This document shows positions 22,798 through 60,653 of a DNA stretch of 64,000 nucleotides, piece by piece. Location of the stretch: contig CM049320.1 of assembly GCA_026874595.1 (NCBI GenBank), forward strand, positions 29,002,714-29,066,713, in the 5' to 3' direction. Below the pieces are notes generated by a model. The model searched no databases, had not been told where the DNA came from, and saw nothing but the letters and a program-made list of their open reading frames with translations. Each line of letters begins with the position of its first letter. The stretch's first letter is position 1. Origin of the DNA: Sipunculus nudus. Lineage: Eukaryota > Annelida > Sipuncula > Golfingiida > Sipunculidae. The position numbers and the translations under genes were made by a program.

Positions 22798-23045
22798 CTG
22801 CTACAATATGTTTACTCACAGAGTCACTAAGCTGAACTTGTCCCGTGTGTAAAGTAAGCTTTGGACAGAGAATTTCATTTGTTGAATATATACAAGCAGG
22901 CAAGGTTTTCCCTATTTTCCCAGAATGACCCAGATGTAATGCTGCACGTGGTATTGTATCTATGCACTTCACTGGGGCTAATTCAACGCGTGAGTGCATG
23001 CGATCAATGGTCGGTCTCGGATTCACGTTGTTTTAAAAGGTCAGT
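22798..23045 (-). other. Candidate orphan 5' exon of a type 2 TRIM gene
   Basis: On the - strand it ends GTAGCAG followed by the near-perfect donor GTAAGTAAC (22789-22797). It shares AGCTGAACT next to the donor and the AAGGTTTTCC...TGTATCTATGCA segment with the blocks at 16204 and 42426. Downstream on the - strand no type 2 coding exon of its own is left before the unit at 16.2 kb, so it would be an orphan. Not confirmed by any transcript. Confidence 0.42.
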
Positions 23046-23105
23046 ATTTTGTATGCACAAGTTGCTGTGGCCCCTTTTGCCAAAAAAGTCGCCTTTGATC
23101 CAATG

Positions 23106-23146
<41 letters not shown>

Positions 23147-23718
23147 AATAATATTATATTGTTTATTGACCGTACCGCGTAGGCCCCAATTTTATTAAGT
23201 TTGGGGTTATTACAATTATCATTTTTCAGAACCTACTTTATACAAAGGATTCTAATGTGTGAAAATGCTGTTAAAATATATTTTTTTTATATATTTCGCT
23301 TGCACTGCTGTTAAAGTAGTCCTCTGGTGAGCGAGCTGCATACCATTCTCACAGAAACACATTCATCACAGAAGTTATATAGTCTGCAAAACGTATAAAG
23401 CTAATATCATCCAACATGCATGTAAGCATTGATTTCACAGAGGACTGTTTTGGATTAAACAGTATTTCACACAAGCCATCGTACCTAACATTAAAATGAT
23501 CAACATATGCAATTTAAGCACTCTCTTTTGAGTTCCGAGGCCTGTTATTTTACAGGTTTATTTTCTCAGCCCTACATTTTGGTTCTGAGTTTAAATCAAA
23601 TATAATCAAATTAAATAAAAATCAGAATATATTTTTAAAACTTCAGTGAAACTGACCTTGGTAAAATATGAGCCATGGTATGTATGTTTATATATATGTA
23701 TATATATATGTAATGTAT
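23046..23718. other. Spacer with (CT)n(CG)n and short (TA)n
   Basis: (CT)n changes into (CG)n at 23107-23147. TATATATATGTATATATATATG at about 23690-23711 directly precedes the type 1 TRIM pseudogene and stands where its RING start should be. Confidence 0.6.
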
Positions 23719-24623
23719 CACTAAAGAGGACGAGGGTGGATGGAATATCTAGTTTGTAAAACACCAAACGTACTCCCTGTTAATGGCAGTAAAGGTTTAC
23801 CACGTGACTTTAAAATGAAACAAATACTTTATAGAGGGGCCTGGACGAAATGAGGGATGTATTTATTGTTAAGGCGAGTAATGAAAGCATTCTAATTTTA
23901 TCAGTGATGTGAGCAATATTTATGTAAGGTCTGAGCATATGCTTTTTCCAGATCGTTTCCGTGAGCTTTGTTATCGTTCTTGGGCACTGGCGACATACTA
24001 CTCTTTTGAGTGTAAATGCTTTTCATGCGCTACCTGCAACCAAGGGAACCATGCCATTCACAAGAAAAATGTCCTCCCCAGCGACAAAGCTATCCGCATT
24101 ACTTTTGAGGCCTTCCGAAATGTAAAGCATGAAATAGAAACCATTGCCATTGATTTTGATCGACAGGTAAAACAGAAATAAAAGATAACTGAATCTATAA
24201 ACAATGTTGCAAAGAAGATAGAAAGTGCATGGGAGGCTAAAACAGAAAATAATTGACCAGAACAAGACGACATTGTCAGAGGACCTTAATAAAACGTGTA
24301 GAGCCAAACAAAAATGTCTCTGAGTATCAAATTGTTCCACATGAGACACGTGAATCCCTGCAAATCCTGGACAACATGTCTGTGGAGGAAATTGTAAAAA
24401 GTTTTCAGGATGGTTAGATGTATTAAAGGACAAGCTTCGGCATGCAAGTGCAGCTTCGCCTAAAGTAAAGATTCCAATATTGGAAATTTCGACTGGTCAG
24501 GTTGGGAAACTTATTTATTCTAAAGGTATCATGGGGATCTTGTTTATGTTCGTCATTATTTGCTTAATATCAACTATTGCTAGCGAAATAATTAACACAT
24601 TTTTTTGCTTCTTGTGTAGATAA
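23719..24623 (+). pseudogene. Type 1 TRIM (RING/B-box/coiled-coil/membrane anchor) pseudogene
   Basis: Homology to the intact gene at 59520 starts inside the RING, at the RGRGW segment shared with the 45.6-kb paralogue. The first six RING ligands are absent, and a TA-rich tract sits there instead. The next RING ligand is Tyr (EYLVC), as at 45.6 kb. The linker GLPRDFKMKQ follows, then a region broken by stops and frameshifts. A readable B-box 2 region (23909-24180) has two likely zinc cysteines changed (CYRSW and YYSFEC). After a stop at 24178-24180 the coiled coil continues with at least one frameshift. The C-terminus from about 24480 is well kept: TGQVGKL, then about 30 mostly hydrophobic residues ending FFCFLCR and TAA at 24621-24623. 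Clearly dead; useful because it shows the anchor is ancestral to this type. Confidence 0.85.
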
Positions 24624-24929
24624 TGTTCTGAGATTTTTCTCTTTCACTGGTTGCAAAATGAAAAGGGCAAATTCAACTTTGGAACTTGAAAACGACCGAT
24701 TAAAAAGTTTTATCTATCTCTGGTATACGTTAACTTTTGCCACTGCGTCTGACCAATATATTTGGAGCTTTTTTGCGGCGTCACTGCGTTATTTTTTTTA
24801 AATTTAATTTCACTCTACCTGTACGTGTGCTTTTCATTAAAGTATCACTATTCATATCACCTACTGTAAGTTAAAACATGTGACATCTGACATGTTAGAT
24901 CCGATATTTGACACTCATCGTATATGTAC

Positions 24930-27422: not shown

Positions 27423-27433
27423 TGTTACTGGAA

Positions 27434-28672: not shown

Positions 28673-28698
<26 letters not shown>

Positions 28699-29820
28699 TA
28701 TATAGGGGCAATATAAGACAATTGATTCTTTAGAATGACCGCTTATATTTGAAGTCATGAAATTTTAAATCTTACCAATCGATTATTCTTATAAAGGGTT
28801 TGGACATTGGATGAGTATTCCTTCAACGTAATCCACTCTTTCGTATTTTTTCCATATTGCTTTGAAGTGAAAGTATATTCACATGAGTAATTTGGACACA
28901 GGACCAAATAAACCAGGGAACCGAACCATGTAGTGAAACGCTACGTAAAGCATTTGTAGATTACAAGTTATTATAGCCGTCCGGTTACCAACCTCTTGCG
29001 AACGAGAAAATAATTTACATACGAAAAAAGTAAATGTTTTCGATCTCACATGTCAGCTGTACGCCGTTTTATAAGAGAAAATTCATGAATGAGTGTGTGT
29101 GATACATATGTGAATTATAAACACGACCCTAAATGCTGTATTAAAACAAGATAACTATGTGAAGTGAGGTGCCCCCTTGCGCATGCCCGTTCATTGCAAA
29201 ATTTTCAATGTCTTGTGTGAAGACGACGGATGGCAAATAGCGACGTGCAAGCAGAAGAAAATCATGGTGGGCCGAAGTGTTTTGTTTACACGGTAGACAC
29301 TGGAGTGTTGCTGTAAATTGCTGTTAACCAAAACATGGAGCCAGGTAGTTGGTTAGGTACAGGTTAGTTTCTCACTGGGGTCATTTAATATACACTGATA
29401 TGAAAAGAAAACGATGCGCAAGGGAACTTACCAACTGTTCCCCCAAAAATGTTCATGATTAATTGTATAAATAGGGTTCTCCCCTTACGTTTTAATCATG
29501 GGAATGAATAAGGTCTTTCTTAAAAGGCTTTTGGCATGAAAAAAAAAAAACAGGCAAGAGACAGATATTGTGCATAGATGTAACTAATGTGTTGCACTGT
29601 TCCAAAAGCGGCAGGATTCAACCCATCAGTATTTTTTAATGACATAGCTTTAGATAGTATAAGTGGATCCTTTTTACTTTGGACATTTTAGGCATATTTA
29701 ATAACAAAAGAGAGTATGATTCGCAAAGGCAAATTTTTAGAACACTTAAATACCTGCAGTGTAACTTGCCAAAGAAGTTCTACTTAATGTCAACTGACAA
29801 CCGTCAGAGGCGATATATGA
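28673..29820. other. Spacer without a recognisable gene
   Basis: (ACAT)n then (TA)n at the left edge. The remainder is mixed AT-rich sequence with no recognised gene. Confidence 0.5.
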
Positions 29821-30764
29821 TGTATGGTTGGTTAATAGAAGTAAAGACCTACAGATATAGAATCTGTCGATATGACCACGTGAGGTTTGCTGGACCTTAC
29901 CGCGCCACAATGTCACGTCAAACCTCAGTCTTTCTATCTTTAATCGCATACAGTGTAATCGTTCTTTTTATTAGTGTTCTTTTAATACTCTCTGACATGA
30001 GTGGTGTTTTCAGAAGTTAATAAATTGGACTTGCACACCCTAGGATGTAAATTAACTCGTCAATTCAATCGGACCTTTTATTTAAGATTCCTTCAATCAA
30101 TTAAAAGTCAACATTACCAGGGCATTTGTCAAACATAAATCACTGTATATATTAAAGCTCTGATATGAGTGGTCCTTTTTAGAAGTTGGTATATTGGACT
30201 TGTAAGCTTACGGATATGCATTCACGTATCGGTTCAACACGACCTTATGCATAGGACTACTTGGCATGTTAATGAATCATTAACATTACAAGAACACTTG
30301 CAGGTTTAATATATTTAGCGACAAGAAGAACCCCAAGTGTTACATCATCCAGTAACGATATATACGCCTGGTGACACACGTTGTAGTTTTTAGTGTGCTG
30401 CGGTTTTCTATAATGGCACGCAGGTGTTACGCACAAAATGCACCACAGTCTTTGTAACTCACATACAGGACTATAACATCATTATGAAGATGATCATCAG
30501 GTTGTAGTTCAACACATGAATACACAGCCATAAAACCCAGTTATGACCCACTGATTTTTTATACATAGATAGTGCAATGTGTACTATAATGTGTACTATA
30601 ATTGAGGGCGTTCTGAAGTGTGAGGGAGTTGAAATAAAGAATACATTCTCTTTATTAATGCTTATACATCTTTGTTATGATATCTGGAAGGTCAACATAT
30701 TTAGAATCATCCAAATGTGCTAAACAATATGCTCAATTACACTCGGCTGTAACATTTGGTCTTT

Positions 30765-30822
<58 letters not shown>

Positions 30823-31224
30823 GGCATAACTGAGTTAGTCTGTAGTTGAAGTATAAGTAAAGTGTAAGAATGACTATTGTAAGTTGGAACGAGTTCTGTA
30901 ACTTTGTTATTGTTTGTATGTTTTGATAACCAGACCTATTTAATAAAAATGTTTCATTACACATATCGGCATATATATCGAAGAATGATCACCGTGTTTG
31001 ATATAACCTCTGACATATGAACAGCATCCTTCAAAGAAAGAAATTTGTGTTTATTAATGTGTTTGGTTTTCTTAAAATGTTCACTCATTTCCATTTGGCA
31101 GCGTCTCTTCTTTCAGGACAAAGGGAGGTGATAAAAAATTATTAAACCTACAAAAAATTAGTTATCATTTTGTTTATTGTAGCGTTTGGACTATGCCCTT
31201 TACTCTTCTTTTTAAAAGATATAT
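29821..31224 (-). repeat. Duplicated 3' flank of type 2 TRIM genes, copy 1
   Basis: Shares a series of landmarks in the same order with 36110-37487 and 49580-51507. They include AAAGACCTACAGATAT, CACGTGAGGTTT, TCAAACCTCAGTC, GCTCTGATATGAGTGG, a GTGACACA segment and GGTCAACATATTTAGAATC. A (TA)n tract fills 30767-30818. It lies 3' of the NHL tail at 31225, so it is the flank of a decayed type 2 gene. A 113-codon + frame at 29679 with a hydrophobic C-terminus overlaps it. Its counterparts in the other two copies are not open in a comparable frame, so I do not call it. Confidence 0.68.
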
Positions 31225-31340
31225 TTACGGAAACTTATACAGCTTTACACTACTCTCATCTGACTAAAATTATATTCTGTATTACACATATATGGATCTT
31301 TATAGGCGATCTCAATGGGGGAAAACAAACCATCTCCTTC
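31225..31340 (-). pseudogene. Relic of a TRIM-NHL C-terminus
   Basis: On the - strand it reads EGDGLFSP, AYKDPYM, TEYNF and, after a one-base shift, SSVKLYKFP and TAA at 31225-31227. This matches the last 37 or so codons of the type 2 genes at 37.5 kb and 51.5 kb. Upstream homology stops at about 31340. Only the last propeller strands remain. Confidence 0.75.
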
Positions 31341-33499: not shown

Positions 33500-35015
33500 T
33501 GAAGGGCTGGCCTGTGATCTATCAATTGTGAATCGTGACACACGTTCCTCCGGCTTTGCTGGCCAGTGATCTATATATAGCGAATCGTGAGACACATTCC
33601 TCTGGTTTTGCTGGCCTGTGGTCCATCCATAGTGAATCATAACACACATTCTTCTGGTTTCGCTGACCTATGATCCATCTATAGTGAATCTATAAACATT
33701 CGTCTGGTTTGCTTTACTGTGATCTATCTATAGTGAATCGTGACACACGTTCCTATGGTATTTCTGACCTGTGATCCATCTAGAGTGAATCGTGACACAC
33801 GTTCCTCTTTCTTTGCTGGCCTCTGATCCATTTATAGTGAATCATGACACCTATTCCTCTGGTTTTGCTGACTTGTGATCCATCTATAGTGAATCGTGAA
33901 ACAATTTCCTCTGGATTTGCTGGCCTATGGTCCATCCATATTGAATCGTGACACACGTTTCTCTGGCTTTGCTGGCCTATGATCAATCTAAAGTGAATCG
34001 TGACACACGTTTTTATGGTATTTCTGACCTGTGATCTATCTAGAGTGAATCGTGACACACGTTCCTCTTTCTTTGCTGTCTTGTGATCCATTTATAGTGA
34101 ATCATGACACCCATTTCTCTGGTTTTGCCGACCTGTGATCCATCTTTAGTGAATTATCAAACGTTCCTTTGGTTTTCTGGGCTGTGATCTATCTATGGTG
34201 AATCGGGACACACATTCGTCTGGTTTTGCTTACCTGTCATCCATTAACGGTGAATCGTCAAAAGGTTCTTTGGTTTTGCTGGCCTGTGATCCATTTATAG
34301 TGAATCGTGACAAACGTTCCTCTGGCTTTGCTGGCCAGTGATCCATCTATAGTGAATCTTGACACACGTACCTCTGGTTTTGCTGGCCTGTGGTCAATCT
34401 ATAGTGAATCATGACACACATTCCTCTTGTTTTGCTAGCCTGTGGTCCATCAATAGTGAATCATAACACCCATTCTTCTGGTTTTTTCTGACCTGTGTTA
34501 CATTCTATAGTGAATCGTGACTAACGTTCCTCTGGCTTTACTGACCTGTAATCCATCTATAGTGAAACTTCAAACGTTCCGCTTGTTTTGCTGGCCTGTG
34601 GTCCATCCATAGTGAATCGTGACACACGTTCCTCTGGTTTTGCTGACCTGTTATCCATCTATAGTTAATCATGACACACGTTCCTCTGGTTTGCTTGCCT
34701 ATGAACCATCTACAGTGCATCATGACACACATTCCTCTGGTTTTGCTGGCCTGTGATTCATCCATAGTGAATCATAAACACATTTTTCTGGTTTTGCTGA
34801 CCTGTGATCCATCTACAATGAAACGTCAAATAGATGGATAACAGGTCAGAAAAACCAGAGAAACGTGTGGTTCATCTAAACTGAATCGTGACACACATTG
34901 CTCTATTTATAATGACCTGTGGTCCATCCATAATGAATAATGACATACGTTTTTATGGTTTTGCTGACCTGTGGTCCAGTTATAGTGAATCATGACACAT
35001 TTTCCCCTTGGTTTT
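33500..35015. repeat. Minisatellite, unit about 52 bp, about 29 copies
   Basis: The unit is a run of GTGAATCGTGACACACG, TTCCTCTGGTTTTGCTGG and CCTGTGATCCATCTATA, repeated with substitutions and small indels. One unit at 34832-34869 is inverted. A single related unit with a poly-C run is at about 44725-44780, in the paralogous flank of the 45.6-kb TRIM. The open - strand frames here follow the repeat and are not genes. Confidence 0.93.
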
Positions 35016-35880
35016 CTTATTCGCTTTGTTGTTTAAACCTGGCCGCAGTAAAAATGCTGTCTCTGACAGCAACTTAATAATCTATTAAAATGATGTAGAG
35101 TTAAAAAATCATTGGATTTATATCAATGAATACTACATTGTAATGTCTGGCCTAGAGTCGTATACGTCAGGTATACAAAATAAGTGATTAAAGTATTCAC
35201 ATTCTGGGTTGTTTGCTTCCATCTTGTAATGCTTTTTCGTGCTTCTGATTTTAATTCTTATATCTTATATGCTTATATTTTTCTCATTTTCTGTCACACT
35301 TCCCCAGATCTAGTGTTCATGTCAAACTACATTTGGCTTTGTCTTTTGTGTGCGCATGGAAAGTGCCAATATATTAAAAAGAGTACAGAGGTACCGTAGC
35401 CGTGACCTATCCTGTTTCATTGGAATGCAAGCATAAGGGACAATACGCGATATTTTCTAAGCACTTATAAGGCTACTATTCTTATATCACTATAGATCAC
35501 AGATAACAGCCGAAAACATAACACATCAGGCTTTAACCTCCCAGGTCTTCCTTTTCACACACATGCTTTTATGTCAATGGCAAAAATTACACATGCATCA
35601 TTGTAGAAATATCATGAACAAAAATTTCTCTTGCCATACTTAGAATATCGATCACCATGTGTATCATCGCCCATGTGCCTTAAGCAGGCTAACCTCTAAA
35701 AGAAATTGTGTTGTCACGTGCCGTAAGTCTTATAAATAAACAATAGATATGGTAATGCAACATTTGAAAGAAAAAAATGGATGGTACATAATTACTAATT
35801 AAATGATACATTCATTACACTCTTCAGTAGTCAATTGTTCATGTTTAGAAGGGTTCGCGCCATTACATTATGTTTTTCCC
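35016..35880 (+). repeat. Duplicated 5' flank of type 1 TRIM genes, copy 1
   Basis: Matches 44790-45560 in order: AATTAAAGTATTTACATACT-type sequence followed by GGGTTGTT.GCTTCC, then CACTTCCCCAGATCTAGTG, AATTGGCATGCAAGC-type sequence, CATCACCATGTGTA and AGGCAGGCTAACC. Both run into a type 1 TRIM start, so gene and upstream sequence were duplicated together. Confidence 0.75.
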
Positions 35881-35898
35881 ATATTCTTAAACTTAGGT

Positions 35899-36055
35899 AT
35901 GGCAACTGCAAGAATGGGAGGGCAAACGCGAGACATGTATGTATAGTGAGTATGGTGGAACGTCATCCACGCTCCCTCAGATGTCTTCATAGTTTCTGTC
36001 AAGAATATTTAGAAAAATGTCTCTAAAGAGGACGAGGCTAGATAAATTGTCTTCT
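35899..36055 (+). pseudogene. Type 1 TRIM RING fragment
   Basis: It keeps the ancestral ATG (35899, MATARMGG) that is lost at 45.6 kb, preceded by an acceptor-like AACTTAG. About 22 bases, covering the first two RING cysteines, are missing relative to 45.6 kb, and the frame stops after 15 codons. Beyond that, SMVERHPRSLRCLHSFCQE is readable, with the sixth zinc ligand changed to Tyr (QEYLE), then a stop. Unlike the 23.7- and 45.6-kb copies it still has Cys at the seventh ligand (INCLLC). Homology fades by about 36055. Confidence 0.83.
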
Positions 36056-36109
36056 ATGCAAACACGAAAACACCTTCTACTAAGTGGGAACCTTTCTCCA
36101 TCATAAAAT

Positions 36110-37487
36110 GGTAAAGATGATTAATAGAGGCAAAGACCTACATATATCAAATCTTTCAATATGACAACGTAAGGTATAGTGAATTTCAATAGTCTACAGT
36201 GTTATGGCAAACCCGAGTCGCCCTATGTTTGCAACGCAGCGCTTGTATAGTGTAATTGCTCCTGATAAGTATGTACCGTGTTTTATAGCTCTGATATGTG
36301 TGTGGTATTTTTTACAAGTATTATGCTGGGCTTGTAACAAAAGGAAGTGCGTTCATGCGGTGTTGCAAAGTGTCCTTGAGCTTAAGAGTCCGCCGCTTGT
36401 TAGTTAATCATCAACATTAACAAACATAAACAGAGCACCAGCAGGTACAAGAGAATATGCAACAAAACAAACCAAAAGAGTTACATCAATAAATTACGCG
36501 ATATGCCCCGTGACACAAAAACAGAATTTACTTGAGTTAACTTACTTCACCATCCGGTCAGTGTGCTGGTGTTTTGTGCATATTTGCTTGAAAATCTAGT
36601 CATAAACGATGGTTTTGTTCTGCTTTTTCTATAACACAGGGATTGTACAACTTGTTTACAACTCGGACAGTGGCGTTTGGTAGTTTGTATGACATTTATT
36701 TGGAAATAAAGTGAAATAAATGTGTACAAAACAGTCTCTCGTTAACATATAATACAGTTAGATATTCATAAATGAAACGTCAACATATCTAGCATAATTA
36801 TATATAAACACATGATTTGGATTGTCTTCAGGATGTATACAGTCGTTGGATTACACCATTACCTCATGCAATCCACAAATTCCATGCTCATGGAATGTAT
36901 CCTGCGAGAACAACCGTACATAGTCCAAGTAAATACACCTGCGATATACTTTATCAAATAAAGGAATGTCTACATTCAATAGCAATACGGGCATAGAATG
37001 TGATAAACAAATTATTACATCGGTTTAAAGTTAAATATAATGTAAAGCATAATTATTCATATTAAACATGTACTTCTTTTACATAGCTAAGAAAATGTGT
37101 AGAAAGTAAAGCCAACGTAACAACATACGGTAGCAATACAGAATTACACATACTATATTACATGCTCAATACTACGTGAAAAAATGATATTTCCAGTCTG
37201 TCCTGCACTCCTTTTGCTTTTATATGAACCGCTGCTGTGGCATCAGCCACTTAATACAATCCTTTACTCCGAATTTCATATCACAGAACGGGCCGTAACA
37301 TATTTACTAAATACAATGCATTTCTTTTCACATGTTCCTAACAAGGAAAAGGCCATTCTGTAATTTTGTTATAGCCTGCAATGTTCTGACAACCAGACCT
37401 GTTCAAAGTAAAATGTTTCCTTATATAAGTCAATATTTAAATCAAAATAATACCACCTTCTTTGATAGAAACTCTGACATTGAGTAT
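36110..37487 (-). repeat. Duplicated 3' flank of type 2 TRIM genes, copy 2
   Basis: The 3' side of the 37.5-kb gene, paralogous to 29821-31224 and 49580-51507. On the - strand an AATAAA lies at 36695-36700, about 790 bases past the ancestral stop, and may be its polyadenylation signal. No gene of its own recognised. Confidence 0.6.
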
Positions 37488-37767
37488 CTATTGATACTTA
37501 TACATCTTTATACTTCTATGATCTGCATCAAAATTATATTCCGTAATCCAGATATATGGATGTTTATAGGCAAGTCCTTTGGGGAAAAACAAACCATCTC
37601 CTTCTGTAAGAGGGTAGCCTAGACATTTACCCTTAAGTGTATACTCTGCGATCCTGTGGTTGCCAGAATCTGCAATAAGTATGGTACCCCTGGGCGATCC
37701 GGTCGCTGAACTAGGGGAATAGAAAGGATCTTCTATTTTAGCTAATCGCTTGCCGGTTCTAACATCT
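37488..37767 (-). pseudogene. Out-of-frame C-terminal part of the TRIM-NHL gene
   Basis: Directly after the frame break the - strand continues open for 92 codons in the next frame, from DVRTGKRLAK to MYKYQ and TAG at 37488-37490. It carries a canonical NHL signature, ILIADSGNHRI, and aligns codon by codon with the 51508-51792 tail. It is therefore the genuine end of the gene starting at 39102, cut off by one extra base in an A-run (+ strand T-run 37767-37770). With that base disregarded the protein would be 537 residues. Confidence 0.85.
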
Positions 37768-39102
37768 TTTCAGTATGATTTTGTTAGCAGTCGCATCACA
37801 AACAACTAAAACTTCCTTATCACCCACGACAGCAACACTGACATACGCACTGTGGCCTTTCCCTATAAAAGTAACCAGTTTCTTTGTTCCAGTGTCCCCT
37901 CTAGTTTTGTATACCTGTCCCAAGCTGTTACCTATATATATGTTTCTATGTTTATCCACTGTCATTGAATACAAGGTGTCGCATTCAAAGTGTCCTACAT
38001 ACCTTGTTGTGAAGTGCGGATTTTTTTCTTTAGGGGCAAACACTGATAAATGGTCAGAGTGCAATAAACCTACTTTATCTCGAAAGACATACATACACGA
38101 AATTTTATTTTCAGATTCATCTGGTGTATAAGTTCTTATTATTCTTCCTTTTTCATCAAGCCTTGTGACATGATACAAATTAGCATCTGAGTAGAGGACA
38201 CTGTCATCTTCAAGAATGAAAATATTTCTTGGCTCTTTCGTTTCTACATCTTCTGCTGTAAGGTGAATACATTGTGATAATGTTTCATGTCCTGGGCATT
38301 CTGGTGGTATTTTGCAGGCGACATCATGGACTCCTGTTAGTATTTCTTTCACAGAAATATTCTTAAACATTTTTAACATTTCCATGAAATTTCGATGTAT
38401 TTCTAGAGATATTCCGTGCTTTATGATCCCTTTAATAGAATCACTGACACCAAGTTGCTCTGTGAGGTCTAATTCACGTTTTTCCAATTTCGCTATGAGC
38501 TCGTACACTTTCCGTTGATAATCCGCTGTTCCTTTATGGATAGGCAACGTCTTATCCTGATGCTGGGAGTGGCTTCCAGTCATCATGCACACAGAACAAA
38601 GACGAATTTCACACTCAGTGCAGTAATACTTCATCTCCGCAGAATGAGCATGACAGCGCATTGATTCATTTCCGCACCATGGAGTAATCACGTGACTTTG
38701 AAACATATTATTATGGCGATTTTCACAGGCTTTGCACAATATCTGGTCACATTCTTTACAAAAGCTAACTCCTTGCACTTTACCTTTTTTGAAAATACAG
38801 ACTCCGCAATAATCCAAGCTGCTAGGAGGGTCTTCTATAATTTCCTTGAACTGTTTCAGTTTGAAGTCCAGTGGAAGGCCCTGAATACCTGCCTTTGGGA
38901 TAAGAGTTGTCACCTTGCATAAAGGGCACTCGAGATTACTGTTGCTCGCACATTTTTCACACTGCTCCAAACAACTCTGACAGAACGTATGCAGACATCT
39001 AAGAGAACGTGGCTGGCGTTCTAACATATTCTCCAGACACACAGGGCAGTTCAGGAGATCAGACTTCTTTTGACTGTTTCCGTCTGCTATGGCAGCGGCC
39101 AT
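37759..39102 (-). CDS. TRIM-NHL type E3 ubiquitin ligase (type 2), open to residue 447
   Basis: Predicted ubiquitin ligase of the TRIM family. RING: C19, C22, C36, H38, C41, C44, C59, C62. The TRIM linker GIQGLPLDFKLKQF follows. B-box 1: C99, C102, C115, C118, C123, C126, H130, H137. B-box 2: C150, H153, C161, C164, C169, C172, H178, H181. A short coiled coil spans about 190-255, and an NHL-like beta-propeller starts at about 290 (NIFILEDDSVLYSD, MTVDKHRNIYIGNSLGQV). In the family the RING recruits E2 and the propeller binds RNA or protein targets; the target here is unknown. The start is supported by an acceptor-like TGTATGTAG six bases upstream, the same arrangement as in its paralogues, so a 5' exon is expected (candidate at 42426). 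The frame ends early through a one-base shift near codon 445 (see 37488-37767). Base use is like the surroundings and no intron is needed in the coding part. An assembly error or a recently broken gene are both possible. Confidence 0.88.
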   Translation of the reverse strand: MAAAIADGNSQKKSDLLNCPVCLENMLERQPRSLRCLHTFCQSCLEQCEKCASNSNLECPLCKVTTLIPKAGIQGLPLDFKLKQFKEIIEDPPSSLDYCGVCIFKKGKVQGVSFCKECDQILCKACENRHNNMFQSHVITPWCGNESMRCHAHSAEMKYYCTECEIRLCSVCMMTGSHSQHQDKTLPIHKGTADYQRKVYELIAKLEKRELDLTEQLGVSDSIKGIIKHGISLEIHRNFMEMLKMFKNISVKEILTGVHDVACKIPPECPGHETLSQCIHLTAEDVETKEPRNIFILEDDSVLYSDANLYHVTRLDEKGRIIRTYTPDESENKISCMYVFRDKVGLLHSDHLSVFAPKEKNPHFTTRYVGHFECDTLYSMTVDKHRNIYIGNSLGQVYKTRGDTGTKKLVTFIGKGHSAYVSVAVVGDKEVLVVCDATANKIILKRC

Positions 39103-45560: not shown

Positions 45561-45584
45561 GTTCGCCCCATATTAATTTCGGTG

Positions 45585-46545
45585 AAACGGCAACTGCAAG
45601 AATGAGAGGGCTAACGCGAGACAATTGCGATCTGCTGATTTGCCCTGTATGTCTTGAGAGTATGGTGGAACGTCAACCACGCTCCCCCGGATGCCTCCAT
45701 ACTTTCTGTCAAGAGTGTTTGGAAATATATCACCAAAGAGGACGAGGGTGGATAGAATATCCAGTTTGTAAAACACCAACAGTACTCCCTGTTCATGGCA
45801 TTAAAGGTTTACCACGTGACTTTAAAATAAAACAAATAAAAGACTTTATAGAGGGACCTGGACGAAAAGAGGGATGCACTTACTGTCAAGGGTGAGCAGT
45901 GAAAGCCGTTTGCTTTTGTCAGGAATGTGAGCAATATTTATGTAAGGTCTGCGGAGCTCTGCATTGAAAACAAAATGCTGAGCATATGATTTTGTCAGAT
46001 CGTTTCCATGCGCTTTGTTATCGTTCATGTGCACTGGCTACATACTACTGTTTTGAGTGTAAATGCTTTCTGTGCGCTACCTGCAACCAAGGAAACCATG
46101 CCATTCACAGGAAAAATGTCGTCCCTACCGACAAAGCTATCCGCAGTACTTTTCAGGCCTTCCAGTGTGTCAAGCATGAAATAGAAAACGTTGCCATTGA
46201 TTGTGATCGAGAGATAAAACAAAAACCCAGATAATTGAATCAATAAACCATGTTGCAAAGGAGATAGAAATTGCCTGGGAGTCTCAAAAGAAAACAATTG
46301 ACCATAACAAGACGAGTTTGTCAGATGACCTGAATAAAACTTGTCGAAAAAAAGCTAAGAGGTCTCTAATTGAGTTTCAAATTGTTTCACGCGAGACGCG
46401 TGACTCACTACAAATGCTTGACCAAATGTCTGTGGAGGAAATTATAACATCAATTGATAAGTTTTCAGTTCGGCTCAACAAAATGAAGGAAAAGGTCCTG
46501 AGTGCAAAAGGTGCTTCACTTAAATATGAAGCATCAAAATTTTAA
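45585..46545 (+). pseudogene. Type 1 TRIM pseudogene (RING, B-boxes, coiled coil)
   Basis: Close relative of the intact gene at 59520. The ancestral start is ACG here (45585, ACGGCAACTGCAAGAATG), leaving the next ATG at 45602. RING ligands are present except the seventh, which is Tyr (IEYPVC). The linker GIKGLPRDFKIKQI follows. Two in-frame TGA stops interrupt B-box 1, at 45893-45895 and 45965-45967. B-box 2 keeps all eight likely ligands (LCYRSC, YCFECKCFLCATC, GNHAIH). One base is lost at about 46225 (KQKP), shifting the coiled coil, which then reads on as MSDDLNKTC...KYEASKF to a stop at 46543-46545. The membrane anchor is missing. A truncated RING product of 97 codons could in principle be made, but I treat it as dead. 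Confidence 0.85.
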
Positions 46546-49041: not shown

Positions 49042-49579
49042 CAGTTGTTTGGAAGTGTGGGTAGTCTTATTTTAATATATCCAATGTGTATTGTTAACAA
49101 ATTCTGCCTATTTCATAACGGTATAAGCAGACGCCGGATTGTTTGAATAGGTCTGAAAAATTGGTCCGAGATCTGTAGTGGCAAGAATAAGTGGGCCGAG
49201 ATCGGCCGTCCCTTGGTCCGAAATTGATGTGGGCCGATATGAAATGGTCCGACCTCCTGCAGGGTCGAGATGAAAAGTCCGATATTTCCAGGTATTGTCT
49301 GCTCGCTATGCATGCTGCGTGTCACAAAGTGATTTGGTAATCCCATTCAAGTTGCCTCTGTCCCATGTGATACTAACCCCCTCTGTTATACTGCATAAAC
49401 ACAAGCACGATGCCCCCCCCCCCCCCCCACCCGTCATGGACAAAGGATTAATATAATATCAATCCATCATTTAAAACTGGGTCTGAATTGACGGGAAATC
49501 AATTAAAATCTCTGATATAGCTTTGTTTACTCGAAAAGTAAACACCTACGTTGGACTTATGCCATATATCTCTGTATAG
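49039..49579. other. Spacer with degenerate GGTCCGA/GGGCCGA repeats and poly-C
   Basis: At 49160-49285 the phrases TGGTCCGAGAT, GGGCCGAGAT, TGGTCCGAAAT, GGGCCGATAT and TGGTCCGACC alternate at 20-40-bp spacing. A C-run of 16 is at 49413-49428. Confidence 0.6.
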
Positions 49580-50519
49580 ATGACAATAAAAGGTCAAGAC
49601 CTAAAGATATAATTCATGCCATTGTGATCACGTGAGATTTCAACGGGCGGCAATGCCGTGTCAAACCTGAGTCACCGGATCATTATAGCTATGATATGAG
49701 TAGTTCAGAAGTTGGTGTACCGGACGTGTAAGTGAAAGGTTGTGAATGCACGTGTAGTTTCAACAAAAGCTTTTGTCAAGGACTCTTTCGCTGGTTAGTT
49801 CAACAGCAACATTGCCATTGCACTTGTCAAACTTGAGTCACCGTATCTGACAGGAGTGACATATTCTAGAAGTTGGTATAACGGACTTGTACCAAAATGA
49901 TTCGACTCCTTTGCCTGTCCGTGAGTCATTAACATCATCAGAGTGCTTTCAGATATAAGAAATATACGACAGGACCAACACCAGGTGTTACATGAAGAAT
50001 TTACGTGATACACCCAGTGACACAAAAAAAAGAGTTACCTTTCGTCATCTTTCGATTAGCATGTACCTGTCGTTATACGGTGTTTTGTTGTAAATTGTAC
50101 CAGCGGTGCGTTGGTATTATACCCGAAATACAACACACCGCGGTCAACCCAGTCTTTGTATATGACATATATGAATACAGTGTAATATTTAAAAAATCTT
50201 AGGGTTGTAGTTCAACATTGCTTAAATATATAAGTTTAACTTACGGTTTTGATGGACTGTTTTTATTTATTATACATGGAGTATACAACTAGTTCAGCAC
50301 TCGGATGATGGCGTTCGGTAATGTGTATGGTTAGAATGACATCCACTTTGAAATAAAGTCAAATACAAAAACAGTGCCTCCTTTATATCTAATATACCCA
50401 GGTATAGTCATGCATGGAACGTCAACATATTTAACATAATCCAAGCATGCTATATTTACATATATAAAATAAGGCTTTCAACTATACTAGGCTGTAAATT
50501 TGTTTACGCATATATTTAT

Positions 50520-50552
<33 letters not shown>

Positions 50553-51507
50553 AACCCATACACGTTCAATCCCCGACTATGAATTGTATGGATTTTCTTT
50601 AGAATGTATACAGTCTATATGGATTTTATCATTACCTCATGGAATATACATTACCTCAAGTAATTTACCCTGTTCCACTTGTCCTGAGAAAAACTTTGCA
50701 TAGTTAAGGTTAATACACCCCCAATATACTTAAATAAATGTCAATTAAAAAAAGAATGTGTATGTTCAGTGGCTACGGTAATATAGTATGATACAAAAAC
50801 TTCATACTCCTTAATGAAATAAAATGTAATGCTACGTATAACGATTCATATATCACGTGTACTTCTTTTACTTCGCTTAGAAATTGTATGGGAATAACAA
50901 CCATCCACACAAAGTAACATAGGGTGGCATTACAAAAGCTATATAACATGCTTAATGCTGTGTGAAAATATGATATCTCCAGTTTCTACAGCATTCTTTT
51001 GCTTTAACATGAATGGCCGTTATGGCATCAGCCATTGAATGATATCCTTTACTCTGAATTTAACAAAAACTATAATGTAATTGTATTTAATCAGAGTACT
51101 GCCCGTTAAACTAACATATCTTTTTCTCGTGTAGCCAACAAGGATTAGGGGATTTTATTAGTTTGTTTTTGCTTGAAATGTCCTGACAAACCAGATCTGT
51201 TCAATGTAAAATGTATCATTACATATGTCCACATATAAATTTAAAAAAAACTTTACTAGAAACTATGACATATAAACAGCTTTTTTGTATATTAGAAATT
51301 ATAATTGTGTCATTGTTTTCCAATATTTACTAACAACCAGTTCGAAGCGTCTCTCCTCAAGTAAAACAAATCAACCATCCAAGTTATGATTTCTTTTAAA
51401 CAGGGAAAAGGGCAGTGATAATAAATTATTACACCCACCTTCGACATAATGTAACAATTTGCTCATTTTAGCATAGGGACTATGTCCTTTACTCTACTTT
51501 TCAACTT
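49580..51507 (-). repeat. Duplicated 3' flank of type 2 TRIM genes, copy 3
   Basis: Paralogous to 29821-31224 and 36110-37487 (for example GTCAAGACCTAAAGATAT, CACGTGAGATTTCAACG, GAACGTCAACATATTTAACA). A 150-bp sub-repeat with ATATGAGTAGTTCAGAAGTTGG recurs near 49.70 and 49.85 kb. (TA)n lies at about 50515-50551. No gene of its own seen. Confidence 0.65.
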
Positions 51508-51952
51508 TTACAGTTGAAACTTATACATCATTATACTTCTGTGATCTGCATCAAAATTATATTCGTCAATCCACATATATGGATGGTTAAAGGCGAGCCC
51601 TATGGGGAAAAACAAACCATCTTCCTCTGTAAGAGGGTAACCTAGACAATTACCATCCAGTGTATACGCTGTAATCCTGTGGTTCCCAGAATCTGCTATA
51701 AGAATGGTACCCCTAGGTGTTCCGGTCGCTGAATAAGGACAATTAAAAGGACCTTCAGTTCTAGCTAATCGTCTCCAAGTTCTTATATCCAAGACGAAGA
51801 TCCTATTTCAAGTCATATCACAAACAACTAGAACTTCCTGGTCACCTATATCAGCAACATTGACATACGCGATGTGAACTTCCCCGACATAAGTAACCTG
51901 TTTCCTCATGGTAGCGCTAGCTCTTATTTTGAACACCTGTCCAACTGTGTTA

Positions 51953-51998
<46 letters not shown>

Positions 51999-53086
51999 TT
52001 TTCATTTTTTTTCCACTGCCATTGAATACAAGGTGTTGCATCCAAAGTTGCTAATGAACCATGTTGTGAATTGTGGATTTTTTTTCTCTCAGTGCAAATA
52101 TTGATAAAAGTTCAGAGTGCAATAAGTCTACTGTCTCGAAAAACACACATACACCAAATGGTACTTCTGGCTCCATCTGGTGTATACGTTCTAATTACTC
52201 TTCCCTGTTGATCAATTCTGGTGGCGTGATACAAGTAGGCATCTGAGAAAAGCAGACTATTATCGGCTAGAATGAAAATATATCTTGGCGCTTTTATTTC
52301 TATATCTTCTGCTGTAAGGTGAATACATTTCGTAAGCGTTTGATGACCAGGGAATTCTGATGTCATTTTTCCGTTGACATCATGAACTTTTTTCAGCATT
52401 TCTAGCACTAAAATGTGTTTAAATATTTCCTTGAAACTTTGGTTCATTCCATCAATTATCCCCTGCTTTAGGCTCTTTTTTAAATAATCACCGAAAGTAA
52501 GCTTCTCTGAAGAATACATCTGAAGTTTCTGTATAAGCTCAAACGTTGCGCGTTGGAAATCCTCTCTTGACTTATCAATGCGTAACATTTTATCCCTATC
52601 CTGAGAATGGTTTTTAGTCATCATGCAGACATAACAAAAAGCACCTCACACTCCATACAGTAATACTTCCTCACTGTTGAATGTTCATTACAACTACATG
52701 ACTTCTAAATATATTGTTATGGCGACATTCACAGTCTTTGAACAACACCTGATCGCATTCTTTACATAGGCTTACTGCGTGCACTTTATCCTTTTTGAAA
52801 ATGCAAATTCAACAATAGTCCAATTAATTCAACACCACCAGCAGGTTCCTGTAGAAGCCTGAAGTCTTGTGGGAGGCCCCCGATTCCCTCTGTAGGAATG
52901 AGAGTTTCTACCTTGCACAAAGGGCACTCCAGACATCTGTTGACTGCACTCTTAACAGCTCTGCCAAAATGTATGCAGACATCTGAGGGAACGTGGGTTG
53001 TGTTCTACCATATTCTCCGGACACACAGGGCAGTCCAAGAGATCCGACTTCTTTCGAGAATCTTTGTCTGATGCTGCAGTTGCCAT
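51508..53086 (-). pseudogene. TRIM-NHL (type 2) pseudogene with microsatellite in the propeller
   Basis: The start ATG is at 53086, behind an acceptor-like ATATGTAG. RING: CPVCPENMVEHNPRSLRCLHTF, then the fifth zinc ligand is Trp, and a TAA (52952-52954) follows three codons later. B-box sequence is readable but shifted. From 52624 to 52112 the coiled-coil end and propeller start are open and align with the 37.5-kb gene (CIHLTAED, RYIFILADNS, RVIRTYTPD). At 51955-51990 a (TA)n tract expands the codons that read NIYIGN in the paralogue, after which GNTVGQVFK resumes. An in-frame TGA follows the VVCDMT segment, and the tail (51792-51508) is open with ILIADSGNHRI. Not functional in this form. 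It is the best ruler for the frameshift in the 37.5-kb gene. Confidence 0.88.
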
Positions 53087-54744: not shown

Positions 54745-54747
<3 letters not shown>

Positions 54748-54751
54748 CGTG

Positions 54752-57241: not shown

Positions 57242-57302
<61 letters not shown>

Positions 57303-58317
57303 TATTAACATGTGTGTTGGAAATCAGTCTTTTGTTTTATATACAAAATATTTTTTTTAATCATTCATTTAGATCAGTGGTAATTTTGACATGAGTAACA
57401 AATGTAAGTCGATGAGGCCACTGGTAACCACGTACTGCCCTGTATACTGTATTTTTTCAACACCGATGTTGCCAGATTGAAAAGATACTGCGAAGGAAAG
57501 GCTAAATATGGATCCCTTAACCCATAACGGTTATCATGTCCAGATCGATCTATCACAAGAATATAACTGATATAAAAAAGAATATATATCATTATCAGTT
57601 AACATTTAACGGTAGGTAAGGCGTTTGTTGGCTAACATTCTTTGTTATCATTGCATATGGCACATCGATGAAATGAGGCCAACCAAAGTAACAATTAGAA
57701 TGCATGATCTGCCAAGGCAATAACAGTGTTTCCATACGTAACCTGCCATGTAGTGGTCGGTGACCCTGCTAATTCCACAACCCTACGAAATAGGTGGAGG
57801 GGTGTTAGGGACAATAGGATTCACATGATTTCACTTGAGGTACTTGTGTAGAACAAGTATTATGTTTGTTTGATATACTTAAAGAGACCATAAACCATAC
57901 GAATCCCCAGACAGAAATATCATTTATACCCTGGCACATTCAAGTATCATCTTGAACAAGCCTTCCGCTCTTAGAAAATCTAAATCAGTTAATCACCGGA
58001 CACCCTTCCGGCTCAAAGAGCTGACGTACAGTATAAACAAAGTAAACACTGTAATAAACCTCATCTAAGGTAGAGCGCTGTACCGTCCAAGGCGCTTTCG
58101 AAACGTTGTCGCCGGCGCCTGCTTCTGCTCGGTGCTATTTAATTCTCCACCTGACAGTGTCTCCAGTCGAACACTTCCTTGGAATTTGTTTTACATTGGT
58201 GTCTTCTTTGATATTATAGAAATTATCGATTTCGTTTTTGGACATGCAACCCAAGTGCTCCTTCAAACAGAATGCCAATTTTTAGGTCGCCCTCGAGTCT
58301 TAGGCAGCTCATCATTT

Positions 58318-58368
<51 letters not shown>

Positions 58369-59450
58369 CTCTTTATATCTTTCTGTACTACTCCTCTCTG
58401 CTACCCCTCTATGACATCTCTCAAGAATGCAAAGTGCCTACAATATACAACAACCCAAACGCAATCACTTCTAAGTTACCAATATCGGAACGTAACACAG
58501 CTTGCCCTACTTACACATGTATGCCAGCGGAACACGAACAGTTCTACTCGAAGCTTATCCCTCCTCGCAAAGACACTTACCTACTCGGCAATGTTCCTTA
58601 ACACGGCAAATCTTGTGAATGTAAAATCACAACATAACCCGTGAGTGACATGACACTACTCGGCAGGTCTCTCCAAGATCGAGAGTCTCTCCAAAGAATA
58701 TATCGATCGTAAAGAACTATGAGTGTATAGTTCTTATTAAAAAAGGCAGGGGACAAAACGAGTGCAACCACCCACCCAGTACTGCTCCTAACTACACCGT
58801 AAGTCTTCTCAGCTGATCTTTTGTGAATTCTCACAGTGGCCAACAACATGTGAACTCTTTATACAAAACAGCACCGGAATCAATTTTACGAAAATTGCAG
58901 TCTAAATGTACCCCTGCCAAGCATATACAACCGTTTATGATACCACACAATCCTGCTCCGTCCGTGCCCAATTTAGGAATCCACACTGTACAAGAACGGC
59001 CACGGCTGAGACTGGCCTAAATTCGTTGGAAAGCTAAAAGCCTCTGTCATTATCCTTTGAAGGTACTCACGCAGCTATAAACGCAAGCATACATAACATT
59101 ATACCCATGATAATACATATTTCAATACCGAGGAGAATATAGTACCATCATTCGGTTGTGTTATAAGATTTTGCCATATCAGCCATATATTCTGTGTAAA
59201 CCTAACCTCAGGTATGATTCAGGCTTATTGAAGTATCATTTTGTGGCCGAATTGTCTTTTTCATATTCGTGTAAACAGTAATGTAAGTTATTTATTTACG
59301 TCTGATTAAATATACTCAAATTTAAATGAATTTATTGACGTAATATAAAAAAAACTAAAAATAACACGTGTATTACATTCAATATCTTTCTAGCAGCAAA
59401 TTCTATGTAGCTCATTTAAAAGTAAATCGCCTTTTTTTTGTTTTGATCAG
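55166..59450. other. Spacer upstream of the intact type 1 TRIM gene
   Basis: A donor-like AACCACAGGTAAGA (+) lies at 56322-56335 and could end a 5' exon of the 59.5-kb gene, whose nearest acceptor-like site is TTTTGATCAG at 59450; this is speculative. (TA)n at 57244-57300; (CT)n at 58323-58365. Long frames across the (CT)n tract (58132-58644) are low-complexity artefacts. No other gene recognised. Confidence 0.45.
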
Positions 59451-59519
59451 GTCACTATGTGATGATATTATACATATTGACTCTTTTATCAAGGTTGAGC
59501 GTATATTCGTTTAGGTGGC

Positions 59520-60653
59520 ATGGCAGCTGTGAGGAAGACTGGCAACACACAAGAAAGATGCGATTTGGTGATATGTCAGATATGTTTTGAGAGTATGGTG
59601 GAACGTCGACCACGCGCCCTCAGATGTCTCCACACTTTCTGTCAAGAATGTTTAGGAGCGCTTATCCTGAGAGCGCCAAGGGATATAAGTTGTCCTGTGT
59701 GCAACACAAGAACGGCTCTCCCTCCTAATGGTGTTACAGGATTGCCATTTGATTTTAAAATACAACAAATAAACGACTATATAGAGAAGCCTGAGAGCAG
59801 TGAAAGATGCTCAAAGTGTCAAATTCAGGGACGAGAAGAAAAAGCTCGCTGCTTTTGTCAAAATTGTGACCAATATTTATGTAAGGTCTGCCTAGCTGTT
59901 CATGACAAACGATTTTCAGGGCATTTGATTCTGCCTGATCGATTTCAGGAGAGTTGTAATTACTGCGATAGGAATGCTGCTGTATACCACTGCTTCGAAT
60001 GTTCATCCTTCGTGTGCCATGACTGTAAAGAGTCTAGAATCCACGAAGCGCACGCACAAAAGATAGTGTCCATCAATGCAGCTATTCGCCGCACTAAGAA
60101 GTCTCTCACAGATTACAAGTCCGAAAGTGAAAGCCTTATTTTATATTGCGAGCAAGAACGAGAAAGAAATCTAAAGGTCATCGAATCGATAAATAACATC
60201 ACAGAAAGGATAGAAAATGAATGGAAAGCTCAAAAGAAACTGTTGGACATAAATAGAGATTATTTAACAGAAAGCCTTGAAATAAATTATAAAATAAAAG
60301 CGGAAAGTTTTATAGCTGAGTACAACCATGTTACGCAAGAGGAACGGCAATTTCTGCAAAACCTGGATGATATGCCGATGAAAAAACTTATGACATCCCT
60401 GGGGAACCTGGCCGAGCAGTTACAGTCTAGAAAAGAACAAGTCAGGCTTGTCACATCAGCTTCTAGTAGATTCAAAGTACCAATATTCGAGAGTTTAACA
60501 GGCCAGGTAGGGAGATTGGGCCATCCAAAAGGTAGCTGTTCGACCATCATAAATAACATTCTTCTTACTTTACTTGCTTTCCTTTTCATTGTAATAATTT
60601 CAAAGTTTCCTCTTATATGTTTGGTTTTATTTTATGCGCTCTCTTTTTGTTAA
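59520..60653 (+). CDS. RING/B-box E3 ubiquitin ligase with C-terminal membrane anchor (type 1 TRIM)
   Basis: Intact single-exon coding frame of 377 residues. RING: C19, C22, C36, H38, C41, C44, C58, C61. TRIM linker GVTGLPFDFKIQQ at 71-83. B-box 1: C97, C100, C113, C116, C121, C124, H128, H135. B-box 2: C146, C149, C158, C161, C166, C169, H175, H178. Coiled coil about 188-310. From 342 to 377 the end is strongly hydrophobic (NNILLTLLAFLFIVIISKF, then PLICLVLFYALSFC), one or two membrane segments. There is no NHL, SPRY or filamin domain. RING, B-box, coiled coil and tail anchor together match the layout of vertebrate TRIM13 and TRIM59, which sit in the ER membrane; orthology is not claimed. 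The start has G at -3 and G at +4. Acceptor-like sites lie at 59450 (TTTTGATCAG, as in the 45.6-kb copy) and just before the ATG (TTCGTTTAG), so a 5' exon is likely. A possible AATAAA is at 61036-61041. Confidence 0.92.
   Translation: MAAVRKTGNTQERCDLVICQICFESMVERRPRALRCLHTFCQECLGALILRAPRDISCPVCNTRTALPPNGVTGLPFDFKIQQINDYIEKPESSERCSKCQIQGREEKARCFCQNCDQYLCKVCLAVHDKRFSGHLILPDRFQESCNYCDRNAAVYHCFECSSFVCHDCKESRIHEAHAQKIVSINAAIRRTKKSLTDYKSESESLILYCEQERERNLKVIESINNITERIENEWKAQKKLLDINRDYLTESLEINYKIKAESFIAEYNHVTQEERQFLQNLDDMPMKKLMTSLGNLAEQLQSRKEQVRLVTSASSRFKVPIFESLTGQVGRLGHPKGSCSTIINNILLTLLAFLFIVIISKFPLICLVLFYALSFC

Follow-up and report, generated by a model that had tools for sequence, protein, structure and literature searches.

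Four tandem cassettes (U1 to U4), each consisting of a convergent pair of TRIM genes, T1(+)→…←T2(−), lie on one animal chromosome, and they very probably represent an old, decaying tandem array that arose by repeated block duplication and pseudogenisation within a large TRIM expansion. The T2 of U4 falls just past the edge of the window, i.e. the whole stretch of 64,000 nucleotides that was analysed, at 66.5–67.3 kb. T1 consists of a RING–B-box–coiled-coil followed by a hydrophobic tail, and T2 of a T1-like start with an NHL-like tail, the RING-B-box-coiled-coil part common to both having 35% protein identity. When TRIM copies were located by tblastn and masked self-BLAST, all T1 copies in the window were on the + strand (23.71-24.6, 35.89-36.07 (fragment), 45.59-46.55 and 59.52-60.65 kb) and all T2 copies on the - strand (31.21-31.34 (tail), 37.49-39.10, 51.51-53.09 and an N-terminal fragment at 12.93-13.34 kb). 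These are the positions and strands given in the first-pass annotation of this DNA, except that the N-terminal fragment was absent from its list of T2 copies. A convergent T2 partner is present for each of the four T1 copies, and coding and non-coding parts keep a common order and orientation across the four cassettes; the proposed unit of duplication, with one T1 and one T2 in fixed orientation, is borne out, non-coding DNA included. The range proposed for the array began at 22798, which is ~0.9 kb to the left of the first T1 match and is not counted in the unit here; the single match seen near it is weak (to 16.2 kb, E 4.8e-7, self-comparison). Rfam and tRNA scans of the window (ARAGORN, bacterial code) found nothing.

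Table 1. Features of the array and its surroundings, in window coordinates; frame states presuppose intron-less genes and correct assembly.
Feature	Position	Strand	State or relationship
U1 T1	23713..24620	+	5'-truncated, frame-broken; hydrophobic tail still readable
U1 convergent spacer, duplicated part	29771..31209	.	parts resemble 36068-37485 and 49499-51513, same orientation
U1 T2	31210..31340	-	tail fragment only
U2 T1 upstream flank	34924..35890	.	aligns to 44692-45586, 67.9% over 806 ungapped columns
U2 T1	35891..36066	+	gene start only, to about codon 68
U2 convergent spacer	36068..37485	.	z 85.6 against U3 spacer
U2 T2	37491..39102	-	447-aa open frame from ATG; one frame break near 37760
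U3 T1 upstream flank	44692..45586	.	aligned to U2 T1 upstream flank
U3 T1	45587..46545	+	broken: 5 stops in first frame, frame change after
U3 convergent spacer, duplicated part	49499..51513	.	49499-51313 used in genome search
U3 T2	51514..53086	-	broken in several frames; missing coiled-coil part nearly as in U2 T2
U4 T1	59520..60653	+	only intact T1; 377 aa from ATG; RING-B-box-coiled-coil and hydrophobic tail, residues 338-377
U4 spacer similarity, start	63911..64000	.	continues to 64395 past window; 36055-36552 matches 63911-64395, E 1.4e-10
U4 T2	66515-67330, outside window	-	tail half, two frames
Extra T2 N-terminal fragment, non-cassette	12929..13340	-	recent copy of T2 at -21.4 to -19.4 kb, outside window
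Left 1.8-kb direct repeat R	11153..12928	.	adjoins copied segment; 2.8% mismatch to 16268-18026
Right 1.8-kb direct repeat R	16268..18026	.	adjoins copied segment 12929-16266

The claim that non-coding flanks were duplicated along with the genes proved correct. The masked self-comparison of 280 kb gave 520 rows at E <= 1e-4 against 2 in a reversed-sequence control (best control E 2.2e-5), the comparison within the window gave 54 rows against 4 at E <= 1e-3 (best control E 7.7e-6), and the similarity of the flanks survived alignment. Convergent spacers compared in the same orientation exceeded 20 dinucleotide shuffles in five of the six cassette pairs (z = 11.7-85.6), the U3-U4 pair not rising above its 20 (z = 2.1), and in the opposite orientation z was at most 3.0 in all six. 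On the head-to-head side, clear similarity was absent in nine of ten same-orientation pairs (z <= 3.9, 10 shuffles each), two of these nine (z 2.9 and 3.9) being above all their shuffles; the exception, D1-D2, was alike over the roughly 1 kb that precedes T1 (z = 70.6). The last 500 bases of the T1 upstream flank gave z 23.0 between U2 and U3, the 500-bp flank of U4 was dissimilar to that of U2 (z -0.1), and its match to U3 was limited to the last 74 columns (z 4.4). It is the convergent pair that forms the unit; of the head-to-head side, U2 and U3 have only the near upstream of T1 in common. A genome search with the U3 spacer returned, in the best 40 of 288 candidates scored, this array on chromosome C15 only, plus a TA-rich microsatellite of the kind found inside the spacer (about 50490-50570), so the spacer does not belong to a dispersed repeat, and a transposon origin for it is rejected. 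The U4 spacer was not returned among these 40, and has 47-52% identity to the other spacers in global alignment. A hidden third gene was also considered, as a 120-codon frame at 29658-30020; no conserved frame was seen, since short translated spacer matches are scattered over both strands and various frames. Joint copying of genes and non-coding DNA, with order and orientation unchanged and confined to this locus, is the pattern of a tandem segmental duplication, for which U4 is the weakest case.

Decay has affected every cassette, none of the four having both members intact. Across the 193-kb cluster, 10 of the 13 TRIM copies are broken, the intact three being one T1, one T2 (T2I) and one T3. 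U1 T1 is found by tblastn as pieces in three frames, with stops; it has 78% DNA identity to 45.7-46.5 kb, and its start adjoins a TA-rich stretch. The U1 T2 tail, which matches 37485-37604 (80%) and, inside a longer stretch, 51153-51627 (66%), aligns to T2I residues 633-667 with one stop. The coding sequence of U2 T1 passes directly into spacer, i.e. an internal deletion, and U2 T2, with RING and B-box by Pfam, is without T2I residues ~268-402 (the coiled-coil part), a nearly identical internal part being missing in U3. Change by codon position was flat, as in dead genes, on three branches (T1_23 19/18/22 and, from U3, T1_45 24/18/27 and T2_53 54/53/57); the T2_39 branch had some third-position excess (28/39/55), and T2_39 was therefore probably under constraint for part of its time. 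Compared spacer parts are more diverged than even the broken coding sequence, the T2-proximal spacer of U2 and U3 having 68.6% identity over 657 columns and their T2 coding sequence 74.9%. The intact T2 is ~72 kb from the intact T1, unpaired and on the + strand, so the strand rule breaks down outside the window: alternation by strand, as annotated, stands within it and fails beyond, where T2I (at +132 kb) is on +, as are two T3 copies. Between 61 and 177 kb, a T1 query matched only T2I and T3 copies.

Site counts placed U2 and U3 together, apart from U4, for both T1 (15 v 5 and 1 sites, with T2I as fourth) and T2 (47 v 15 and 10 sites, with T2_m20 as fourth), and likewise placed the T1 of U1 and U3 apart from U4 (77 v 14 and 10 sites). 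Within U1-U3, the T1 tree favoured U1 with U3 (support 96), as did the T2 tail tree weakly (support 62), and T2 site counts were 2, 2 and 2 in 114 columns; spacer identity (70.7% v 66.3% and 64.0%) and spacer site counts (32 v 24 and 18) favoured U2 with U3, and the spacer tree joined U1 with U2 (support 69). Full congruence of the T1, T2 and spacer trees was dropped because site counts and spacer disagree or give no single splitting order for U1-U3. Only the grouping of these cassettes apart from U4 is retained, with conflicting signals among the three.

A younger event near 12.9 kb looks like a complex rearrangement. The T2 fragment there is 97.5% identical to its donor over 405 columns, the segment 12929-16266 minus an inverted piece differs by 3.6-4.4% from the donor, and short matches are found at the joints of R and the copied segment. 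R itself, with at least 42 matches in a genome search (best 40 of 470 candidates scored), is part of a dispersed element, and its genome-wide matches rule out a local private repeat.

These comparisons demonstrate both block copying and decay. The block, with two paralogous TRIM genes in convergent orientation, each having its whole known coding part in one stretch, was copied repeatedly as a unit into tandem cassettes, conceivably by unequal exchange or a replication-based process, and members then decayed through truncation, deletion and frame breaks. The array was left with a single intact T1, the intact T2 and T3 lying farther down the chromosome. Alternation on opposite strands follows because the block was copied as a unit, and with no cassette in which both genes are intact it looks like ordinary block duplication and then decay, the passive outcome that the first-pass annotation had named as its alternative and that fits best. 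Its other proposal, a functional cassette of a tethered ligase and a propeller ligase held together by selection for shared regulation, is very unlikely: every T1 has its convergent T2 and even old spacers can be aligned, but no pair is intact, the compared U2-U3 spacer is less conserved than dead coding sequence, the head-to-head promoter sides have nothing clearly in common except, in U2 and U3, ~1 kb before T1, and the intact T2 and T3 stand apart.

Block duplication is likewise preferred to independent insertions, e.g. of transposons or retrocopies with TRIM exons, which are extremely improbable as the source of the alternation given that the spacer (in 5/6 pairs) and the U2/U3 T1 upstream flank were copied along with the genes and that the spacer had no matches elsewhere except the microsatellite (best 40 of 288 candidates scored). 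The intact coding frames without introns, several repeats in the inter-cassette intervals and the nearby T2 fragment flanked by two copies of a dispersed element would suit such insertions; against retrocopies in particular, acceptor-like sequence is visible by eye just 5' of several ATGs. It is also unlikely that T1 and T2 were once one inverted duplicate, which would make each cassette a single giant inverted repeat whose promoters are shared. The shared domains on opposite strands are consistent with this, and two BLAST matches at the DNA level extend some 370-410 bases beyond the start codons, which suggested a shared upstream promoter; however, T1 and T2 were dissimilar over 500 bp of upstream flank in 9/9 pairs (z <= 1.7). 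Flanks of 500 bp compared between T2 copies fared no better (3 pairs, z <= 1.8), so age alone may have erased any signal.

Genome-wide, the two types were not found to be mostly apart. The T1 tail gave 10 matches, of which five (three T1 and two T2 copies) had E<0.005 and all lay at C15 28.98-29.14 Mb, the other five having E of 1.2 or more; four of the seven T3-tail matches (two T3 and two T2 copies) were below 1e-7, all on C15; and the seven best of 144 places found with T2 tails from 5 copies were all inside this cluster. Pairing is complete for T1 and partial for T2, with 4 of the 7 cluster copies paired and 3 unpaired. B-box matches numbered at least 123 genome-wide (best 150 of 469 candidates scored), and the locus sits within a large genome-wide TRIM expansion. 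RING and B-box were above the curated Pfam cut-off in T1, T2_39, T2I and T3_170, T1 and T2 show C3HC4 cysteine/histidine spacing on inspection by eye, and a coiled-coil stretch of T2I aligned to TRIM28/TRIM25 chains; the TRIM (RBCC) order of RING, B-box and coiled coil is present, the coiled coil by the T2I alignment. From these domains, the intact members are predicted to be E3 ligases. In the PDB, the T2 tail weakly matches Pizza propellers, Thin and TRIM71 (E 8.7e-5 to 0.047). The U4 T1 tail has a Kyte-Doolittle mean of 2.73 over 19 residues, with windows >1.6 starting at residues 338-359, which by hydropathy is a C-terminal transmembrane segment and suggests a membrane-anchored product. 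T1 and T3 have different hydrophobic tails, with significant C-terminal matches only within this cluster, and both align with neighbouring T2 to about the same point past the coiled coil, where the tail switches. A tentative explanation is that this single locus generated membrane-type TRIMs, a propeller TRIM having exchanged its propeller for membrane tails on one or two occasions.

The membrane-anchored TRIM13 (RFP2) and TRIM59 belong to class XI and, by description, have like T1 a tripartite motif and then a C-terminal hydrophobic segment. The closest counterparts of T1 within the genome are the neighbouring T2 genes, so its tail was probably gained independently of TRIM13/TRIM59. RFP2 is named as a transmembrane E3 in a title in the reference list of Marin 2012 (PMC3503706), which in its passages on TRIM subfamily C places TRIM2, TRIM3, TRIM32, TRIM45, TRIM56 and TRIM71 there. 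T1 and T2 resemble this subfamily in that their top solved chains were TRIM2 RINGs, followed by TRIM3, TRIM56 and TRIM32, and for T2 also TRIM28 (best 60 of 114 and of 69), and in the weak T2-tail matches; they differ in that T1 has a hydrophobic tail instead of a propeller and the Pfam NHL match of T2I is 10.1 bits, under the curated 20. In the primate TRIM segmental-duplication reservoir, TRIM genes also multiplied by duplication of a genomic block at a volatile locus, but most young copies are expressed according to the abstract of Han et al. 2011 (PMC3228819), whereas here old cassettes are mostly broken. The immune gene copies of the sea urchin Sp185/333 clusters are likewise in segmental duplications edged by short repeats, but without pseudogenes according to a section heading of Oren et al. 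2016 (PMC5103432), in contrast to the predominantly broken copies here, for which an immune role would be hypothetical. Among the titles and abstract openings listed in literature searches, none described the T1/T2 arrangement, which does not imply that it is unpublished. Regular alternation of two genes can thus arise by block duplication without selection to keep the pair. The locus is a decaying part of a large TRIM expansion where a single copy of each architecture survives intact, and as the two hydrophobic-tailed types are seemingly confined to it, the origin of the membrane tails is testable in related species.

The alternating array of TRIM copies is real, and duplication of a block holding a convergent TRIM pair, with later decay, accounts for it. 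The window (C15:29,002,714-29,066,713, C15 being its contig) was joined with C15:28.90-29.01 and 29.06-29.18 Mb into a 280-kb stretch for analysis, and searches covered the 1.43-Gb genome (153 contigs). Every copy and strand listed in the first-pass annotation was recovered by tblastn and masked self-comparison, and the cluster comprises 13 TRIM copies over 193 kb, namely four of type 1 (T1), seven of type 2 (T2) and two of a further type (T3). The rule that strand follows type holds within the array and fails beyond it, where the intact T2 (T2I) and both T3 copies lie on the plus strand. Between -21 and 67 kb, the perfect strand-by-type split of ten copies (six T2, four T1) has a 1 in 210 chance by hand arithmetic, given four plus and six minus copies; the common non-coding DNA is a stronger argument for the array than this probability.

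Features of the TRIM cluster and its surroundings (window coordinates; negative values lie to the left; U1-U4, cassettes)
Feature	Position	Strand	State or remark
T2_m20	-21.4 to -19.4 kb	-	nearly whole; outside window
Satellite array	1-4013		window left end; 193-bp units, about 20 copies
Inverted pair, ~1 kb	8354-9424 / 24990-25988		75% identical; possibly dispersed element
Direct repeats R, two of 1.8 kb	11153-18026		flank copied segment
Copied segment, 3.3 kb	12929-16266		donor at -19.9 to -16.5 kb
T2 N-terminal fragment	12.9-13.3 kb	-	part of copied segment
Inverted piece, ~270 bp	15124-15391		donor at -17714 to -17444
Inverted relative	20835-21510
U1 T1 (T1_23)	23.7 kb	+	broken, 5'-truncated
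U1 T2	31.2 kb	-	tail
52-bp-unit array	33506-35018		about 25 copies in 33506-34815; adjoins start of U2
U2 T1	35.9 kb	+	fragment
U2 T2 (T2_39)	37.5-39.1 kb	-	frame break, internal loss
U3 T1 (T1_45)	45.6 kb	+	broken
U3 T2 (T2_53)	51.5-53.1 kb	-	broken
U4 T1 (T1_59)	59.5 kb	+	intact; 377 codons
U4 T2 (T2_67)	66.5-67.3 kb	-	tail half in two frames; completes fourth pair; outside window
Open frame, 933 codons	+111.4 to +114.2 kb (C15:29114140-29116938)	-	ends resemble LINE-type endonuclease/reverse transcriptase by eye
T2I	132 kb	+	intact; 668 codons
T3	164.5 kb	+
T3 (T3_170)	170.7 kb (L031:3422-4768)	+	intact; 449 codons

Similarity between intervals was scored against dinucleotide shuffles, with 20 shuffles per pair of convergent spacers and 10 per pair of head-to-head intervals. 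The spacers between T1 and T2 tails are alike in the same orientation in five of the six cassette pairs (z 11.7-85.6), with no similarity above shuffles for U3-U4 in that orientation (z 2.1) and z of at most 3.0 for spacers tested in opposite orientation. Nine of the ten head-to-head pairs were without clear similarity in the same orientation (z up to 3.9), two of them (z 2.9 and 3.9) scoring above every one of their shuffles, and the sole clearly similar pair, at 34.9-35.9 and 44.7-45.6 kb, lies upstream of T1 (z 70.6). In opposite orientation one head-to-head pair reached z 35, fitting a repeat at 14.6-15.1 / 42.7-43.1 kb, and the other nine z up to 4.0. The U4 T1 upstream flank barely resembles those of other cassettes (z -0.1 and 4.4). 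From the spacer and head-to-head results, the duplicated unit is therefore approximately 1 kb of T1 upstream DNA (seen in U2 and U3), T1, the spacer and T2. Used as a genome-wide query, the U3 spacer gave at least 133 matches (40 of 288 candidates scored); outside a TA-rich microsatellite (query about 990-1072), those listed fall only in U1, U2 and U3 of the array, and the diverged U4 spacer is absent from the matches listed.

The C-terminal half of T1 gave ten genome matches at E<=10, of which five had E<0.005, all at C15 28.98-29.14 Mb and corresponding to T1 copies in three cases and T2 copies in two (the U2 T1 fragment, lacking a tail, is not detectable by this search), with the remainder at E 1.2 or more. 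The T3 tail gave seven matches, four below 1e-7 and all on C15 (two T3 and two T2 copies). The T2 tail matched 144 places, the best seven (from five copies) within the cluster and most others being distant relatives elsewhere. B-box matches across the genome number at least 123 (150 of 469 candidates scored). TRIM clusters elsewhere in the genome can be simply tandem; a recent example, at C9:60474309-60510597, has six TRIM copies on one strand, spaced about 7.1 kb and with identical match scores. Two TRIM open frames on contig C5, L007 (28.22 Mb, 643 aa) and L008 (28.91 Mb, 676 aa), combine an acidic linker with a C-terminus resembling NADAR (L007 Pfam NADAR E 1.1e-25, residues 477-618; L008 by sequence likeness to L007 alone), so joining a RING-B-box protein to a possible ADP-ribose-handling domain.

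For both T1 and T2, RING and B-box models exceed the cut-off and the best-matching solved chains are TRIM2 RINGs. T1, T2 and T3 align through the coiled coil and slightly beyond it, after which the tails differ: T1 has a hydrophobic C-terminal stretch (mean 2.73), T3 a different one (2.59), and a hydropathy scan of T2I found none (maximum 1.18), its tail giving weak matches to an NHL-like propeller. By eye, the hydrophobic tail of the 170.7-kb T3 contains a similar segment twice. Splice-acceptor-like sequence precedes several ATGs by eye, which suggests a 5'-UTR intron and a single coding exon. With L007 and L008 as outgroup, T1 branched first with weak support (68).

Site patterns place U4 apart from the other cassettes, with T1 separating U2+U3 from U4 by 15 v 5 and 1 (167 columns, T2I as fourth) and U1+U3 from U4 by 77 v 14 and 10 (867 columns), and T2 separating U2+U3 from U4 by 47 v 15 and 10 (812 columns, T2_m20 as fourth). 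Lines of evidence disagree on the branching order within U1-U3: first trees gave (U4,(U2,(U1,U3))) from T1 (support 85, 96) and T2 (61, 96, 62), counts of T2 sites across all four cassettes tie at 2, 2 and 2, spacer identity (70.7% v 66.3% and 64.0%) and spacer site counts (32 v 24 and 18) favour U2+U3, and the spacer tree pairs U1 with U2 (support 69). The T2 copies of U2 and U3 lack residues about 268-402 and 245-399 of T2I, respectively, and this gap in the coiled-coil region is probably a common loss. Most of the U2 T1 is gone through a deletion fusing codon ~68 to the spacer.

A younger event lies beside the array, where the copied segment differs from its donor by 3.6-4.4%, inverted piece excluded. 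The flanking repeats R are 2.8% apart, and short matches are present at both joints with the segment. R is a dispersed element, with at least 42 genome matches (40 of 470 candidates scored), several as inverted pairs 3-6 kb apart by eye; given the inverted relative at 20835-21510, 16.25-21.5 kb may be a single element with long inverted ends. Among the matches listed, the two R are 96% identical to each other and at best 92% to other copies, and share about 140 bases at the left end that those other copies lack, so one R appears to derive from the other rather than each from an insertion of its own. The inverted piece is 95% identical to its donor and adjoins fold-back repeats. Templated insertion during a rearrangement of the replication type could explain this segment, and the event shows that the locus kept producing TRIM fragments after the cassettes had formed.

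The first-pass annotation had offered shared regulation of the pair or passive block duplication as the cause of the array. Judged against the intact protein of the same type, an uninterrupted frame survives in T1_59, T2I and T3_170 alone (3/13 copies), and none of the four cassettes has both members intact. Change across codon positions is flat in T1_23 (19/18/22), T1_45 (24/18/27) and T2_53 (54/53/57), and third-position-weighted in T2_39 (28/39/55), suggesting that T2_39 probably stayed working for some time after the split. Third-position excess is 1.84-1.90 in the deeper T2 comparisons (T2_m20-T2_39, T2_m20-T2I, T2I-T2_39 and T2_39-T2_67); constraint on T1 is weakly shown, because the excess between T1_59 and T1_45 is just 1.25 (p 0.052), although T1_59 keeps an open frame of 377 codons. 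Identity comparisons with coding sequence gave no sign of special spacer conservation in U2-U3 (68.6% for the part of the spacer compared and 67.9% for T1 upstream DNA, both below T2 coding at 74.9%) or U1-U3 (T2-proximal spacer 70.7%, below T1 coding at 83.1%). Retention of the pair for shared regulation is disfavoured by these broken cassettes and unexceptional spacers, and co-regulation of T1 and T2 is neither required nor supported. Passive block duplication fits best, T1, spacer and T2 having been copied as one unit: a convergent TRIM pair was block-duplicated into an alternating array, and the duplicated pairs then decayed.
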